Source: Bacillota bacterium (lineage in GTDB: Bacteria > Bacillota > Sulfobacillia > JAJZYS01 > JAJYTV01). From it: 41,912 nucleotides of DNA. The notes under the pieces were generated by a model. The model was not told the origin of the DNA. It made no database searches and saw only the letters and a program-made list of their open reading frames with translations. Positions 2,396 through 27,552 of the stretch are shown piece after piece; positions within the stretch are counted from its first letter, which is position 1; each line of letters starts with the position of its first letter. Both the position numbers and the translations under genes were made by a program. The DNA lies in the NCBI GenBank assembly GCA_021799275.1, contig JAJZAT010000026.1, positions 1 through 41,912 of the forward strand. Reading direction: 5' to 3'.

Positions 2396-3190
2396 TTGCG
2401 CCTAGTCGACGCGACCGGGGATGCGAGGCTCTGGCAACTGTCGCCGGCCCTGGCGGAGACGGTGGCCGTCGCGGTGGCGAGCGGCCGTGCGCCCGAAACC
2501 TTCGGGGTGCGCATGAACGCTCCGTACGTGCTGCTTGGCCCGCAGGACATGCGCCTGCCGCATCCCGAACGAGGCGTCGCTTGGCTGGAGGCGCAGGGCC
2601 TGCCGGTCTACGTCCGCGTTGGCGGCGGCTCGGCCGTTCTGTTGGACGAGAATTGCCTCAGTTTCTTCTGCGCGGTGCCTTGTCGTGACATCTCGCGCCT
2701 CGATAGGAACTTCCACGAGCTCACGCGCCCGGTGCGCCGGGCGCTGGCGACCCTTGGCACACCTGTCCGGTTCGGGCGGGCGCAGGGTTCCTACTGCGAA
2801 GGTCCGCAGGATCTCGTCACCGAGGGCGGGCGGAAGCTCCTCGGTGTTGCCCAGGCCTTGCGCCAGGGCTATGCGCTGGTCTCCGGCATGCTGCTCGTGC
2901 GGCAGGACCCTACGCGCACGACCGCCCTGCTGCAGGAGTTCTACCGCCGCTCCGGCAGCAATCGCGTGTTGCGGCCCGAGGCCGTGACATCGCTGAGCTT
3001 GGAGGCGGGGCGGGACATTCCGCTCGCGGAGGTGAAGAATGCGATCCTGCGTGAGGCGGCCGCGCTTGGCTGGGGCCCCGATCCATCGCCGCTGAGCGCC
3101 TGGGAGGACGATCTCGGGCAGCAGTTGCTGGGTATGCGGCGTTATCCTGCGCAGACACTTGCGCAGCCGCCGTTCATTCGTTCACTATAG
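2396..3190 (+). CDS. lipL: LipL-type octanoyl-[GcvH]:protein N-octanoyltransferase
   Basis: A 264 aa member of the biotin/lipoate protein ligase fold. LipL moves octanoyl groups from GcvH to the E2 subunits of 2-oxoacid dehydrogenases in Bacillota. Visible motifs are VRVGGGSAVLLDEN (about 73-86), GSYCEGPQDL with the likely acyl-accepting Cys134, and GGRKLLGVAQ with Lys147, which match the LipL/LipM arrangement better than ATP-dependent LplA. The start is TTG 2396, five bases after GGGGGGAG; an upstream in-frame GTG at 2348 lacks such a site. It stands alone, with the B12 riboswitch starting downstream. LipM or LplA remain possible. Confidence 0.7.
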   Translation: MRLVDATGDARLWQLSPALAETVAVAVASGRAPETFGVRMNAPYVLLGPQDMRLPHPERGVAWLEAQGLPVYVRVGGGSAVLLDENCLSFFCAVPCRDISRLDRNFHELTRPVRRALATLGTPVRFGRAQGSYCEGPQDLVTEGGRKLLGVAQALRQGYALVSGMLLVRQDPTRTTALLQEFYRRSGSNRVLRPEAVTSLSLEAGRDIPLAEVKNAILREAAALGWGPDPSPLSAWEDDLGQQLLGMRRYPAQTLAQPPFIRSL

Positions 3191-3214
3191 GATTTGGCAA
3201 CTGCATATTGCAGG

Positions 3215-3371
3215 GTTGCGGGTGCCCTCCCACGGGAGGGCGAAGAGGGAATCAGGTGAGAAGCCTGAGCGGTCCCGCCACTGTATGCGGCCGATGAGCG
3301 CCAAAGGAGCCACTGTCGAGAGACGGGAAGGCGGCGCGAGGACACCGCGAGCCAGGAGACCTGCCCGCGCC
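3215..3371 (+). ncRNA. Cobalamin riboswitch
   Basis: The cobalamin-element blocks appear in order: GGTGCCC near the 5' end, GGGAATCAGGTG, GCGGTCCCGCCACTGTA, the GAGCGCCAAAGGAGCCACTG region with CGAGAGACGGGAAGGCGGCG, and the B12 box GAGCCAGGAGACCTGCC (3349-3365). It lies about 115 nt upstream of a B12-type ABC importer, which is the expected target. Binding of adenosylcobalamin should lower expression. Flanking helices make the exact ends uncertain by some 10-20 nt. Confidence 0.92.
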
Positions 3372-3437
3372 ATGCCGGCGATCCTCCGGAGAAGAGGCCA
3401 CGCCGGAAGGCGGCGCAGCGCTGCCTTCTTGGGGGCC

Positions 3438-24023: not shown

Positions 24024-24824
24024 ATGCACGATGGCAAGGGCGGCGTCGCACTGGCACTGGGCGCGGGAGGGGTCTACGGCTACGCCCACGTCGGAGTGCT
24101 GTCGGTGCTCCAGGAGTTCGGGCTCTGGCCCGATTTCGTCGTCGGCTGCAGCATTGGCGCGGTGATCGGTGCCTTCTACGGTGCAGGGCTGACGGGGGAC
24201 CAGCTCCTGCAACTCGGCCTCGGTCTGCGCCGCAGCCACCTGCTCGATCTCAGGCCGACGCGCATGGGACTCATCGGGGGACAGCGTCTGGAAGGCGTGG
24301 TGCGCCTCCTGACGCGCGACAGGCGCCTAGAGGAGATGCGGCCGCCCTTGGCGATTGTCGCCACGGATGTCGAGCGGGGCGAGAAGGTCGTCTTCACCCG
24401 TGGCGCAGCGGCCAAGGCGGCCCGGGCGTCGAGCGCCATGCCAGGCATTTTCGCTCCGGTGCGGATTGGCGAGCACCTGCTGGTGGACGGCGCGGTTCTG
24501 GAGCGCGTGCCCGTGCGAACCGCCCGCGAGCTTGGGGCGGAACGGGTCGTGGCAGTCGTGCTGGGCATGATGGAGCCCGGGCAGAGGGTGCAGGTTCGCA
24601 ACGCCTTCGATGTTGTCACGCAGTCGTTCGACATCATGCAGCGCGAGATCAGCCATGGACACACCGGGGCGGACGTCGTGATCGCGCCGCCCGTGGCCGC
24701 TGCAAACGCGTCTGCGGCTGGAGGCGCCGAGCGCCTGATCGAGGCCGGACGCGCCGCCGCCATGGCACAGCTCGACGCCTTGCGCTCGATCATGCACAGA
24801 AGGGAGATGGCGCAGCATGACTAG
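24024..24824 (+). CDS. ylbK: Patatin-like phospholipase (YlbK family)
   Basis: A 266 aa patatin/RssA-type acyl hydrolase. The oxyanion loop is LGAGGVYGYAHVG, the nucleophile Ser43 lies in GCSIGAVIG (GxSxG), and the dyad Asp is in LVDGAVLERVP. There is no signal peptide. The position between coaD and the PDZ-Lon gene matches Bacillus ylbK, with ylbJ missing here. The last 8 bp overlap the next gene. The natural lipid substrate is not known. Confidence 0.87.
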   Translation: MHDGKGGVALALGAGGVYGYAHVGVLSVLQEFGLWPDFVVGCSIGAVIGAFYGAGLTGDQLLQLGLGLRRSHLLDLRPTRMGLIGGQRLEGVVRLLTRDRRLEEMRPPLAIVATDVERGEKVVFTRGAAAKAARASSAMPGIFAPVRIGEHLLVDGAVLERVPVRTARELGAERVVAVVLGMMEPGQRVQVRNAFDVVTQSFDIMQREISHGHTGADVVIAPPVAAANASAAGGAERLIEAGRAAAMAQLDALRSIMHRREMAQHD

Positions 24825-25830
24825 GCGGCTCAAGTGGTTCCTGGGCGTCGTGATCGCCCTGGTCGTGGTGGCCGCAGCCCTGTGGTTCACGCCCACCGGC
24901 GACTACGTCATCCTGCCGGGCATCACCGAGAACCTGAATCAGATCGTCCAGGTCCAGGGTGTGAAGAAGGCTCCTGCCGGCCGCATGCTCATGGTCGCCG
25001 TCGACATTCAGCCGGCGAATCTTCTTTACTACCTGATCGGGCGCTTCACGCCCTACGGCGAGATCTACCCGGCAAGCGAGCTGTTGGGCACGGGCGTGTC
25101 GGAGCAGCAGTACGAGCAGATGAACCAGCAGCTCATGTCCGAGAGTCACCTGATGGCGAAGGTGGCCGCGCTCCGGGCCATCGGACTGCCGGCCCGCGAG
25201 ACCGGCAAGGGCGTCATCGTCTATGGTACGGAAGCCGGCACACCCGCCGCCGGCAAGCTCAAGGCGCGGGATATCATCACCGCCGTCGACGGCCACCGCA
25301 TGCAGATCGACCAGCAACTGCTGAACTTCATGGGAACCATCAAGCCGGGGACCAAGGTGGACATGACGGTGAAGCGCAAGGGCAAGGTCGTGCACGTCGT
25401 GGTCGGCACCGTGCCGAGCACGTCCATCAAAGGCCACGCCATGGTCGGCGCCTTGATCGGGACCGACTCGCCTGGTTTCGTCGTCCCGCTGAAGATCCAC
25501 ATCCAGACCGGATCGATCTCTGGACCGTCCGCGGGCATGATGTTCAGCCTGTCGATCATCAACCAGTTGCGGCCGCAGTGGCACCTGACGCATGGTGGCA
25601 CGGTGGCCGGGACCGGGACGATCGACGCGTACGGCGACGTCGGCGCGATCGGGGGCGTGCGCGAGAAGGTCGTCACGGTCTACGAGTCGGGAGCGAAGAT
25701 CTTCCTGGTACCGCGCGGCGACTACGCCGACGCGGTGAGCGAGGCGCGTGCCATCGGCATTACCAAGAAAATGCGCATCATACCTGTCGGGACGCTCAAT
25801 CAGGCACTCGCAGCCCTACGCAAGAGCTGA
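24817..25830 (+). CDS. ylbL: Membrane-anchored PDZ/Lon-type protease (YlbL/SepM family)
   Basis: A 337 aa protein. One N-terminal membrane segment (about 7-24) is followed by a VPGP-like region, a PDZ domain (about 130-205, including KARDIITAVDGH) and a Lon-type S16 protease domain. The catalytic Ser lies in SISGPSAGMMFSL and the Lys in GVREKVVTVYESGAK. YlbL-family enzymes cut secreted or membrane proteins outside the cell. It overlaps ylbK by 8 bp and keeps the Bacillus gene order. Confidence 0.9.
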   Translation: MTRRLKWFLGVVIALVVVAAALWFTPTGDYVILPGITENLNQIVQVQGVKKAPAGRMLMVAVDIQPANLLYYLIGRFTPYGEIYPASELLGTGVSEQQYEQMNQQLMSESHLMAKVAALRAIGLPARETGKGVIVYGTEAGTPAAGKLKARDIITAVDGHRMQIDQQLLNFMGTIKPGTKVDMTVKRKGKVVHVVVGTVPSTSIKGHAMVGALIGTDSPGFVVPLKIHIQTGSISGPSAGMMFSLSIINQLRPQWHLTHGGTVAGTGTIDAYGDVGAIGGVREKVVTVYESGAKIFLVPRGDYADAVSEARAIGITKKMRIIPVGTLNQALAALRKS

Positions 25831-25867
25831 GCAGCGTCCCCACCTGAAGTATGGCAGGGGGATGCAG

Positions 25868-26725
25868 ATGCAGGGGGCGGACGAACAGCAGGTTCAAGAG
25901 ATGGTGCAGCAGGAGATGCGAAGGCTCCTGGCCGGCGTGGCCGCTCAGCAGAGCGCCGGTTCCTCGAGTGGGTCCAGCCAGGCTTCGAACGGAGGGGGCT
26001 CGAGCGCGGGCGGATACTCCGGCAGCCAAGGAGGCGCCAACGGGCACGCCAGCGGATATGGAATGAACGGCGCGTCGGGCGGTGGCATGGGGGGCGGCCA
26101 GTCCAGCGGAGGTTCCCAGGCGAACGGCAAGGCGCAGGGCGGATTCGGCCCGGGCATCCCATCGGGCGACGTGCCGCAGCTGCTCATGCAGCTGGCGCTT
26201 GCGTGGCAGCAGCAACTGGTCAGCGGCAGCGCCCAAGGCGCGGCGCAGCAGAACCAGCAGGCGCAAGCGGCGCAGCAGGGCCAGCAGGTCGGCCAGGGAC
26301 AACAGAGTCAGCAGAGTCAGCAGGGTCAGCAGGGTCAGCAGAGTCAGCAGGGCCAGCAGAGTCAGCAGAGCGGCCAGGCGCAGCAGGGACAACAGGCGCA
26401 GGGACAACAGGGACAACAGGGACAACAGGTAAACCAGGGCCAGCAAGCCGGCCAAAGCCAGTCGTCGCAGCAGAACTCGGGCAGCCAGCAGTCGTCTCCT
26501 GGGACCGGAAGCCTGCGCAAGCTCGCCCGGCGCGCCGCGGGGAAGGCCGGAAGAGCTGTTGGCTCGGCGGCGCAGGCGGAACTGATCGCGCAGGCACAGC
26601 AGGAGTTCACGCAGGAACTCCGCCAGAATCTTGAACGGTTGCGCCAGGTGATCTCGGAGAGCCAGGAACTGGCGCGCCGCATGCAGATCGTCCTTGGCGA
26701 AGGAGATGGCAAGAGCTCGAGTTGA
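25868..26725 (+). CDS. Gln/Gly/Ser-rich low-complexity protein with helical ends
   Basis: A 285 aa protein of unrecognised family. Residues about 3-28 (DEQQVQEMVQQEMRRLL) form a predicted helix; about 29-98 is Gly/Ser/Asn-rich; about 101-120 (DVPQLLMQLALAWQQQL) is a second helix; about 123-215 is built of QQGQQ/QQSQQ units. Then comes a basic stretch (LRKLARRAAGKAGRA) and a coiled-coil-like helix (QAELIAQAQQEFTQELRQN). ATG 25868 follows GGGGG by 6 bp; ATG 25862 is closer to that site. It occupies the place of ylbM between ylbL and ylbN. It could be a spore-coat or condensate-forming protein; that is speculation. Confidence 0.7.
   Translation: MQGADEQQVQEMVQQEMRRLLAGVAAQQSAGSSSGSSQASNGGGSSAGGYSGSQGGANGHASGYGMNGASGGGMGGGQSSGGSQANGKAQGGFGPGIPSGDVPQLLMQLALAWQQQLVSGSAQGAAQQNQQAQAAQQGQQVGQGQQSQQSQQGQQGQQSQQGQQSQQSGQAQQGQQAQGQQGQQGQQVNQGQQAGQSQSSQQNSGSQQSSPGTGSLRKLARRAAGKAGRAVGSAAQAELIAQAQQEFTQELRQNLERLRQVISESQELARRMQIVLGEGDGKSSS
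26300..26430 (+). repeat. 9-bp tandem repeats coding for the QQ-rich tract
   Basis: Units of the form CAGCAGGGT, CAGCAGAGT and CAACAGGGA repeat many times in a row within the Gln-rich gene. Because the unit is 9 bp, slippage would change length by three residues without shifting frame. Confidence 0.85.
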
Positions 26726-26750
26726 CGCTCCTCAGGGTCAACCGTATACT
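26722..26750 (+). promoter_or_regulatory. Promoter of ylbN-rpmF
   Basis: TTGACG (26722-26727) and TATACT (26745-26750) are 17 bp apart, a near-consensus sigma-A promoter. The -35 box overlaps the stop codon of the Gln-rich gene. Transcription near 26757 argues against a start codon at 26722. Confidence 0.7.
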
Positions 26751-26772
26751 AGGCAAAGTTGAGGTGGTGCCC

Positions 26773-27261
26773 ATGCTCGGCATAGCCGTCGGCGACCTTC
26801 AGGTGCGTCCGGTAGGCTCCCAGCAGGCCGTCGAGCTGCGGGTGTCCCCCGAGGATCTGCCAGAGCTCGGCCTCGCCGACTGGCTGGAGGCCGAGGGACA
26901 AGCCACGAACCTTGGTGAGGACGGCGTTCGGGTCGAGCTTCAGGTATCGGCCACGCTGCGTCGCTCCTGTGCCAGATGCCTGCAGGATGTGGACCTGGCG
27001 GTGCGGGCAGAGGCGGAGGAGACCTACCACGAGAGTGGGGAGGGGCCGCTGATCACCGCGGACACGATCGACCTGGAGCCGATCATCCAGGAGGCGATCG
27101 TGCTCGCCGAGCCGATGCGGGTTCTCTGCAAGCCCGACTGCCGTGGGCTTTGCCCGCGGTGCGGCAAGGATTTGAACGAGGGACCCTGCGAATGCACCGA
27201 CGACGACCAGGATCCTCGCCTGGCTCCGCTCGCCAAACTGCTGCGACCGAGAGAGGAGTAG
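26773..27261 (+). CDS. ylbN: YceD/DUF177 family protein (YlbN)
   Basis: A 162 aa protein of the DUF177 family, which in most bacteria is encoded just upstream of rpmF and in plants and bacteria is linked to 23S rRNA maturation. The CxxC-type pairs are visible: SCARCLQDV in the middle, and CKPDCRGLCPRCGKDLNEG near the end, followed by CEC. ATG 26773 follows GAGGTG by 6 bp and sits just after the promoter at 26722-26750; an in-frame TTG at 26722 is inside that promoter. Confidence 0.88.
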   Translation: MLGIAVGDLQVRPVGSQQAVELRVSPEDLPELGLADWLEAEGQATNLGEDGVRVELQVSATLRRSCARCLQDVDLAVRAEAEETYHESGEGPLITADTIDLEPIIQEAIVLAEPMRVLCKPDCRGLCPRCGKDLNEGPCECTDDDQDPRLAPLAKLLRPREE

Positions 27262-27507: not shown

Positions 27508-27536
27508 TTGCCATGGATTCCTATGGGCTATATACT
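27508..27536 (+). promoter_or_regulatory. Promoter of the fapR-fab operon
   Basis: TTGCCA (27508-27513) and TATACT (27531-27536) are separated by 17 bp, each one base from consensus. The predicted start, near 27543, lies inside the FapR-like palindrome. Confidence 0.7.
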
Positions 27537-27552
27537 TGGTGCTAACACTAGG
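27535..27552 (+). promoter_or_regulatory. Candidate FapR operator
   Basis: CTTGGTG-CTAA-CACTAGG is an imperfect palindrome over the transcription start of fapR. Its first half (TTGGTGC) resembles the TTAGTACC half-site of Bacillus FapR boxes. Autoregulation of fapR at such a site is known in Bacillus subtilis; here it is inferred from position and partial match. Confidence 0.5.

Follow-up and report, generated by a model that had tools for sequence, protein, structure and literature searches.

The glutamine-rich gene was located at positions 25868..26725 of the forward strand in the window, the whole 41,912-nucleotide stretch of DNA that was analysed. Translation gave an open reading frame of 285 aa plus a stop codon with no internal stop, and an in-frame ATG at 25862 provided an alternative start. 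The upstream neighbours were rsmD-like, coaD-like, patatin (ylbK), and PDZ-LonC (ylbL) genes, and the downstream neighbours were yceD, rpmF, a fapR-like gene, and plsX. The names rpmF and fapR were assigned partly by eye. The ylbL-type PDZ-LonC gene (24817..25830, + strand) was separated from the glutamine-rich gene by 37 bp. On the other side, yceD (26764..27261, + strand, with a start at 26764 or 26773) was preceded by a vegetative-type promoter-like element, TTGACG-N17-TATACT (26722..26750, + strand), found by eye. This element overlapped the stop codon of the glutamine-rich gene, and transcription of yceD therefore probably starts from a vegetative promoter of its own.

The glutamine-rich open reading frame is a real gene, because homologues were found and the dN/dS values were low at both termini. 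A whole-protein search gave homologues in 15 of 41 genomes, with its own genome counted. Between congeneric species, where it was computable, dN/dS was 0.06–0.24 for the first 28 codons, 0.05–0.19 for the last 75 codons, and 0.19–0.37 for the linker, with several dS values being high or saturated and some undefined. The protein is under purifying selection. Its length varied in frame among species (285, 306, 280, and 305 aa), the difference lying in the linker. The 285 aa protein and the in-frame change of length that had been proposed from the sequence were thus both borne out, the latter at the level of species, and the outcome named beforehand as speaking against the gene, no homologue in any relative, was not observed, homologues being present class-wide.

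The AF2 model, which was built on a 14-sequence alignment and had a mean pLDDT of 54.8, contained helices at residues 5–30, 102–119, 214–225, and 233–277, with pLDDT values below 50 for residues 120–209 and nearly all of residues 31–97. The N-terminal helix (residues 5–30; 25880..25957, + strand), placed by AF2 and comparison, carried a conserved motif in the VQEMVQQEMRRLLAG region. It was followed by a predicted disordered linker (residues 31–213; 25958..26506, + strand), rich in Q, G, and S, which included the short predicted helix (residues 102–119; 26171..26224, + strand) and an array of 9-bp repeats that encodes the QQ tract (26246..26445, + strand). TRF described this array with a period of 9 and 22.6 copies, and all TRF arrays scoring above 50 within the 41.9 kb window fell in the QQ tract. 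A basic patch, LRKLARRAAGKAGR (residues 215–231; 26510..26560, + strand), stood ahead of the last helix in the translation and the AF2 model. The predicted C-terminal coiled-coil helix (residues 233–277; 26564..26698, + strand) was the family-defining part according to profiles and AF2. Its core, EL..NL..L+.VI.ES..IA..ME.VL, had a hydrophobic periodicity of 3.5 residues, which was matched by 17 of 10,000 column shuffles. The helical ends, linker, QQ tract made of 9-bp units, and basic patch of the original prediction were therefore all recovered.

Composition and motifs were surveyed in 83 proteins, five of the 88 having been dropped for too little sequence before the coil. A motif like [IL]R.[IL][VI]RQE[LI], counted with a self-made pattern, was present in 55 of the 83 proteins in up to four copies per protein; because the start codons were assigned by a rule, the N-termini of some of them are wrong. 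None of the 83 proteins contained a membrane-like stretch (no 19-residue window above KD 1.6), and the net charge before the coil was at least +3 in 36. The linkers were Q/G/S-rich in the family of the window (f1), S/Q/G/N-rich in f10, and G/A/P-rich in f26. The architecture and the coil are conserved, and Gln-richness is only local. On the layout that the original prediction took as typical of structural or phase-separating proteins, the model and the survey speak to disorder and composition.

Two profiles were used to follow the protein family, A2, made from the C-terminal helix alone (14 rows), and the broader A3 (40 rows). They matched 82 and 84 of the 154 genomes of the class, respectively. 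A profile search with only the terminal helices had been recommended beforehand, and it was the search restricted to a terminal helix that succeeded, recovering the class-wide family. The protein family is a clear case of a kept architecture with a free linker sequence, and for that reason whole-protein similarity searches miss most members. In the A2 and A3 searches it formed one locus per genome except in the contig-split G004, whose contig-end fragment (G004:C40) was excluded from the 86-genome set. In an even sample of the phylum, A3 matched 17 of 398 genomes. Four strong A3 matches lay outside the class (G171, G337, G452, and G512); weak matches outside it, in G195, G428, G475, G245, and at a second place in G512, were discarded as likely chance.

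Pfam and NCBIfam gave no convincing family match, and assignment to a known family by HMM was rejected, the matches up to E 0.1 being scattered coiled-coil or low-complexity ones. A PDB search with the whole protein produced no match at E 0.01, and the coil drew only chance-level ones. The YlbD coat family, considered as a candidate, was unsupported by the Pfam scans, and a limited keyword search of the literature found no paper on the gene. As judged from the profiles, the C-terminal heptad helix defines an undescribed protein family with no Pfam, NCBIfam, or PDB relative. A 61-codon open frame in G023 (L097, oriented positions 3087–3269), with little beyond the coil and no linker, was a possible minimal member.

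The gene had been described as lying in the place of ylbM. It shares with TmcAL (YlbM) the same slot in the order of the ylb cluster, whereas the two are unrelated in sequence, and PF05636 (HIGH_NTase1, TmcAL/YlbM) was absent from the genome of the window and from all 154 genomes of the class in a search that found the domain in B. subtilis. The glutamine-rich protein itself had no Pfam match, and thus no HIGH_NTase1 domain. For comparison, the YlbL of the window was used as a query against 33 genomes in which the family was not clearly represented, and the best 14 loci were read. Among these best 14, ylbL was followed directly by yceD in nine (G039, G025, G031, G084, G060, G087, G090, G147, and G150). 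In G033, rpmF stood at a matching distance from ylbL and yceD was not displayed, and in G042, G027, G151, and G085 the locus had other content after ylbL or ended too early. The mostly closed junction in gene-less relatives indicates that the space between ylbL and yceD either gained the gene by insertion or lost it. Replacement of TmcAL was rejected, because ylbM is missing throughout the class and the slot was closed in most readable gene-less relatives; the likeness to ylbM is positional only. The gene is better assigned to a coiled-coil family that is undescribed, has a free linker, and is probably linked to spores.

Gene contexts were compared side by side at 88 loci. The ylbL gene was upstream in 48 of them, pabC and/or a GH18 gene flanked the family gene in 16, GH18 was close by in 15, ftsH was nearby in six, and NFACT in three. 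The commonest contexts (ylbL, pabC/GH18) were not germination operons. An order of pabC and the family gene facing GH18–FtsK was conserved across many families (L071, L073, L074, L185, L186, and others; f11, f19, and f42), and no NCBIfam name was obtained for the GH18 neighbour.

In seven genomes, representing five families other than that of the window, germination genes adjoined the family gene and were read in the same direction. The orders were gerA-gerAC-gerAB-[gene] in f25 (G035, G134, and G135), gerAC-79 aa-[gene]-gerA in f47 (G145, L076), spoVAC-spoVAD-spoVAEb-[gene]-gerA in f6 (G016, L132), gerA-gerAC-[gene] in f140 (G337), and [gene]-gerA-gerAC in f166 (G452). No spore gene adjoined the copy in the window. 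The number of gerA-type genes was 1 to 12 per genome in the 69 of 88 genomes examined. For fifteen representative genomes, chosen by hand, five lineages of 15 had the gene within 5 kb of gerA compared with 0.2 expected (P ~1e-6), and the same calculation for three or more lineages gave P ~1e-3.

The upstream alignment of f10 contained CATACTA, with GCATA or a similar sequence 17–18 nt before it. This promoter-like motif was located between ylbL and the gene, in most loci 35–45 nt ahead of the called start. Its strict form occurred 29 times on both strands of the 209,517 bp of f10 loci; 28 occurrences lay upstream of the gene at a distance of no more than 140 nt, and the 29th, in G099, fell slightly downstream of a start codon that had probably been placed too far upstream. 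A widened form, NN[AT]TA-N16-18-CAnnCTA, which was set after f43 and f19 had been seen, was present in 41 of 85 upstream regions (three of the 88 loci were left out, their upstream stretch being too short or absent) compared with 0.4 (maximum 2) over 100 dinucleotide-shuffling rounds. Among the 53 regions from families other than f10, 10 contained it, compared with 0.06 (maximum 1) in the shuffles. The counts were 3/6 in f43 and 3/3 in f19, which had shaped the pattern, and 1/2 in f46, 1/2 in f11, 1/1 in f13, and 1/1 in f166, which had not. The motif spanned seven families and several gene contexts, and was found in none of the eight f1 regions.

The form read by the forespore sigma-G has a 17–18 nt gap after ATA and a fixed TA closing the -10, and the upstream motif resembles it. 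PMC3789822 describes the sigma-F and sigma-G elements as alike, gives ATA as the -35 of sigma-E, and places C. difficile spoVA under sigma-G. Upstream of spoIVA of the relatives a different conserved element, GGCATTA..CATATCTT, was found, and no shared motif of the CAnnCTA kind was found upstream of gerA (14 regions) or spoIVB (20 regions). A pattern search of 243 sequences found no SASP gene, so no SASP promoter was usable as a control. With gerA and spoIVB having no such motif and spoIVA another element, there was no positive control, and the motif is therefore termed sporulation-type only; it appears closer to a forespore promoter than to the mother-cell type found before spoIVA. In f10 (L204–L221), a very well conserved non-coding stretch upstream of spoIVA, GGCATTA..TCATATCTTGCTA and then GGTGATCCCGGGACAGGCGAGGACCGGCGCCAACCC, was longer than a promoter requires.

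In f1, CGCATCATACCTGT within the end of ylbL (25774..25787, + strand) was identical in seven of seven genomes, including rare codons. The last ylbL codons kept CGC ATC ATA CCT GT in all seven aligned genomes over two genera, and ATA made up 2.7% of the Ile codons in 14 ORFs of the window. The conserved synonymous sites at 25774–25787 may mark an overlapping regulatory element, distinct from the f10 motif.

Among the 154 class genomes, SpoIVA was detected in 137 and the C-terminal domain of Spo0A in 143. The family gene was present in 83 of the 137 SpoIVA-positive genomes compared with one of the 17 SpoIVA-negative genomes (Fisher P 1.2e-5, uncorrected for descent). The 54 SpoIVA-positive genomes that had no family gene indicate that sporulation does not need it. 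Most SpoIVA-negative genomes were from families wholly without the gene, ylbL too was not found in several of them (G012–G014 and G096), and G083, with neither SpoIVA nor Spo0A, yet kept the family gene; the association is therefore support and not proof. The order-mates G012, G013, and G014 had reduced genomes of 1.5–1.6 Mb in which SpoIVA, Spo0A, and YlbL were undetected, and they have probably lost sporulation.

The germination-operon neighbours and the sporulation-type motif in the relatives agree with the spore link suspected in the original prediction, and we consider it quite likely that the protein family is linked to spores. What the protein would do there can be put more tentatively. 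It is possible, at somewhat less than even confidence, that it is a soluble, probably forespore-made, multivalent scaffold that gathers germination proteins in a GerD-like role. The C-terminal coil would join several chains, and the N-terminal helical motifs, on long flexible linkers, would dock on partners. If expressed in the forespore, the protein, being soluble, would come to lie at the core-facing side of the inner membrane and might there gather or steady GerA-type receptors and the SpoVA channel. The germination neighbours, the motif, the SpoIVA association, the heptad helix, the disordered linker, and the lack of a membrane-like stretch point to such a scaffold; G083, the dispensability of the gene, the commonest contexts, the lack of the motif upstream of gerA, spoIVA, and spoIVB in the relatives, and an f1 with neither motif nor spore neighbour argue against it. 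The role of the copy in the window is hence extrapolated from its relatives, and it would share theirs. The scaffold mechanism taken by itself is slightly more doubtful. The fullest version, in which a class-wide family of soluble forespore proteins arose independently as a GerD-like scaffold and uses its conserved coil and compositionally free, disordered linker to organise the germination machinery at the core face of the inner spore membrane, is rather unlikely to hold in every part.

GerD is a lipoprotein with a helical, oligomer-forming part. The family would resemble it in the proposed scaffold role near the inner membrane and in a helical, potentially oligomer-forming part, whereas it differs in having no membrane-like stretch (83 of 83 proteins) and in having a long disordered linker. 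Scanning Pfam with a limit of E 0.1 gave no match to the GerD or SpoVAEa families, and by this comparison the likeness to GerD is one of role only and not a sequence relationship. According to PMC9241617, GerD is the germinosome scaffold of the germinant receptors near the inner membrane of the Bacillus spore. In G016 the family gene is flanked by spoVAEb and a gerA-family gene, in the region that spoVAEa occupies in Bacillus, whereas the family has no Pfam match to SpoVAEa, another architecture, and other contexts in most genomes. The assembly of germinant receptors and the SpoVA channel has been studied mainly in Bacillus, through GerD, and a single-copy gene with no known domain inside spoVA/gerA operons of several distant spore-former lineages would offer a direct handle outside Bacillus.

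A structural protein of another spore layer (coat, cortex, or core packing), acting as a cross-linked filler and not as a germination scaffold, is an unlikely alternative. A low-complexity linker free in composition and length, a coil suited to cross-linking, and a sporulation-type motif upstream would all suit a filler, as would the nearby GH18 genes, whose spore relevance is unproven. However, the repeated siting in or beside spoVA/gerA operons points to the inner membrane, and the motif appears closer to the forespore form than to the mother-cell form ahead of spoIVA. It is more improbable that the protein is vegetative and works with its neighbour YlbL, for example as a substrate or adaptor of the PDZ protease: the frequent ylbL upstream, the 37-bp spacing in the window, and an f1 with no spore-type motif fit this, but gene-less loci mostly ran from ylbL straight into yceD, the gene was found at other places including spoVA/ger operons, and the f10 motif separated it from ylbL. 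For f1, whose gene has neither spore mark, a vegetative role is nonetheless conceivable. Gamma-type SASP (SspE) is a Q-rich low-complexity spore protein about three to four times shorter than the family, and a comparable spore-core reserve or nucleoid protein, a Q/G/S-rich store digested at germination, is very improbable, since the Q/G/S-rich linker, the basic patch, and a string at the coil start resembling the SASP protease site, E[ILFV][AST][QSN]E (32 of 88 compared with 0.6 in shuffles), are set against the lack of that string in most families and in 56 of the 88 members, a net charge of +3 or more before the coil in only 36 of 83 proteins, and a conserved heptad coil, needless for a reserve protein and with no counterpart in the SASP.

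Apart from the family gene, with the germination scaffold as the tentatively preferred reading, the window contained a c-di-GMP-I-GGC riboswitch (327–411, + strand) and a cobalamin riboswitch (3202–3382, + strand), both above the Rfam gathering score. An imperfect palindrome, TTGGTGCTAACACTAGG, was found by eye before the fapR-like gene at 27536–27552, and is perhaps a FapR box.
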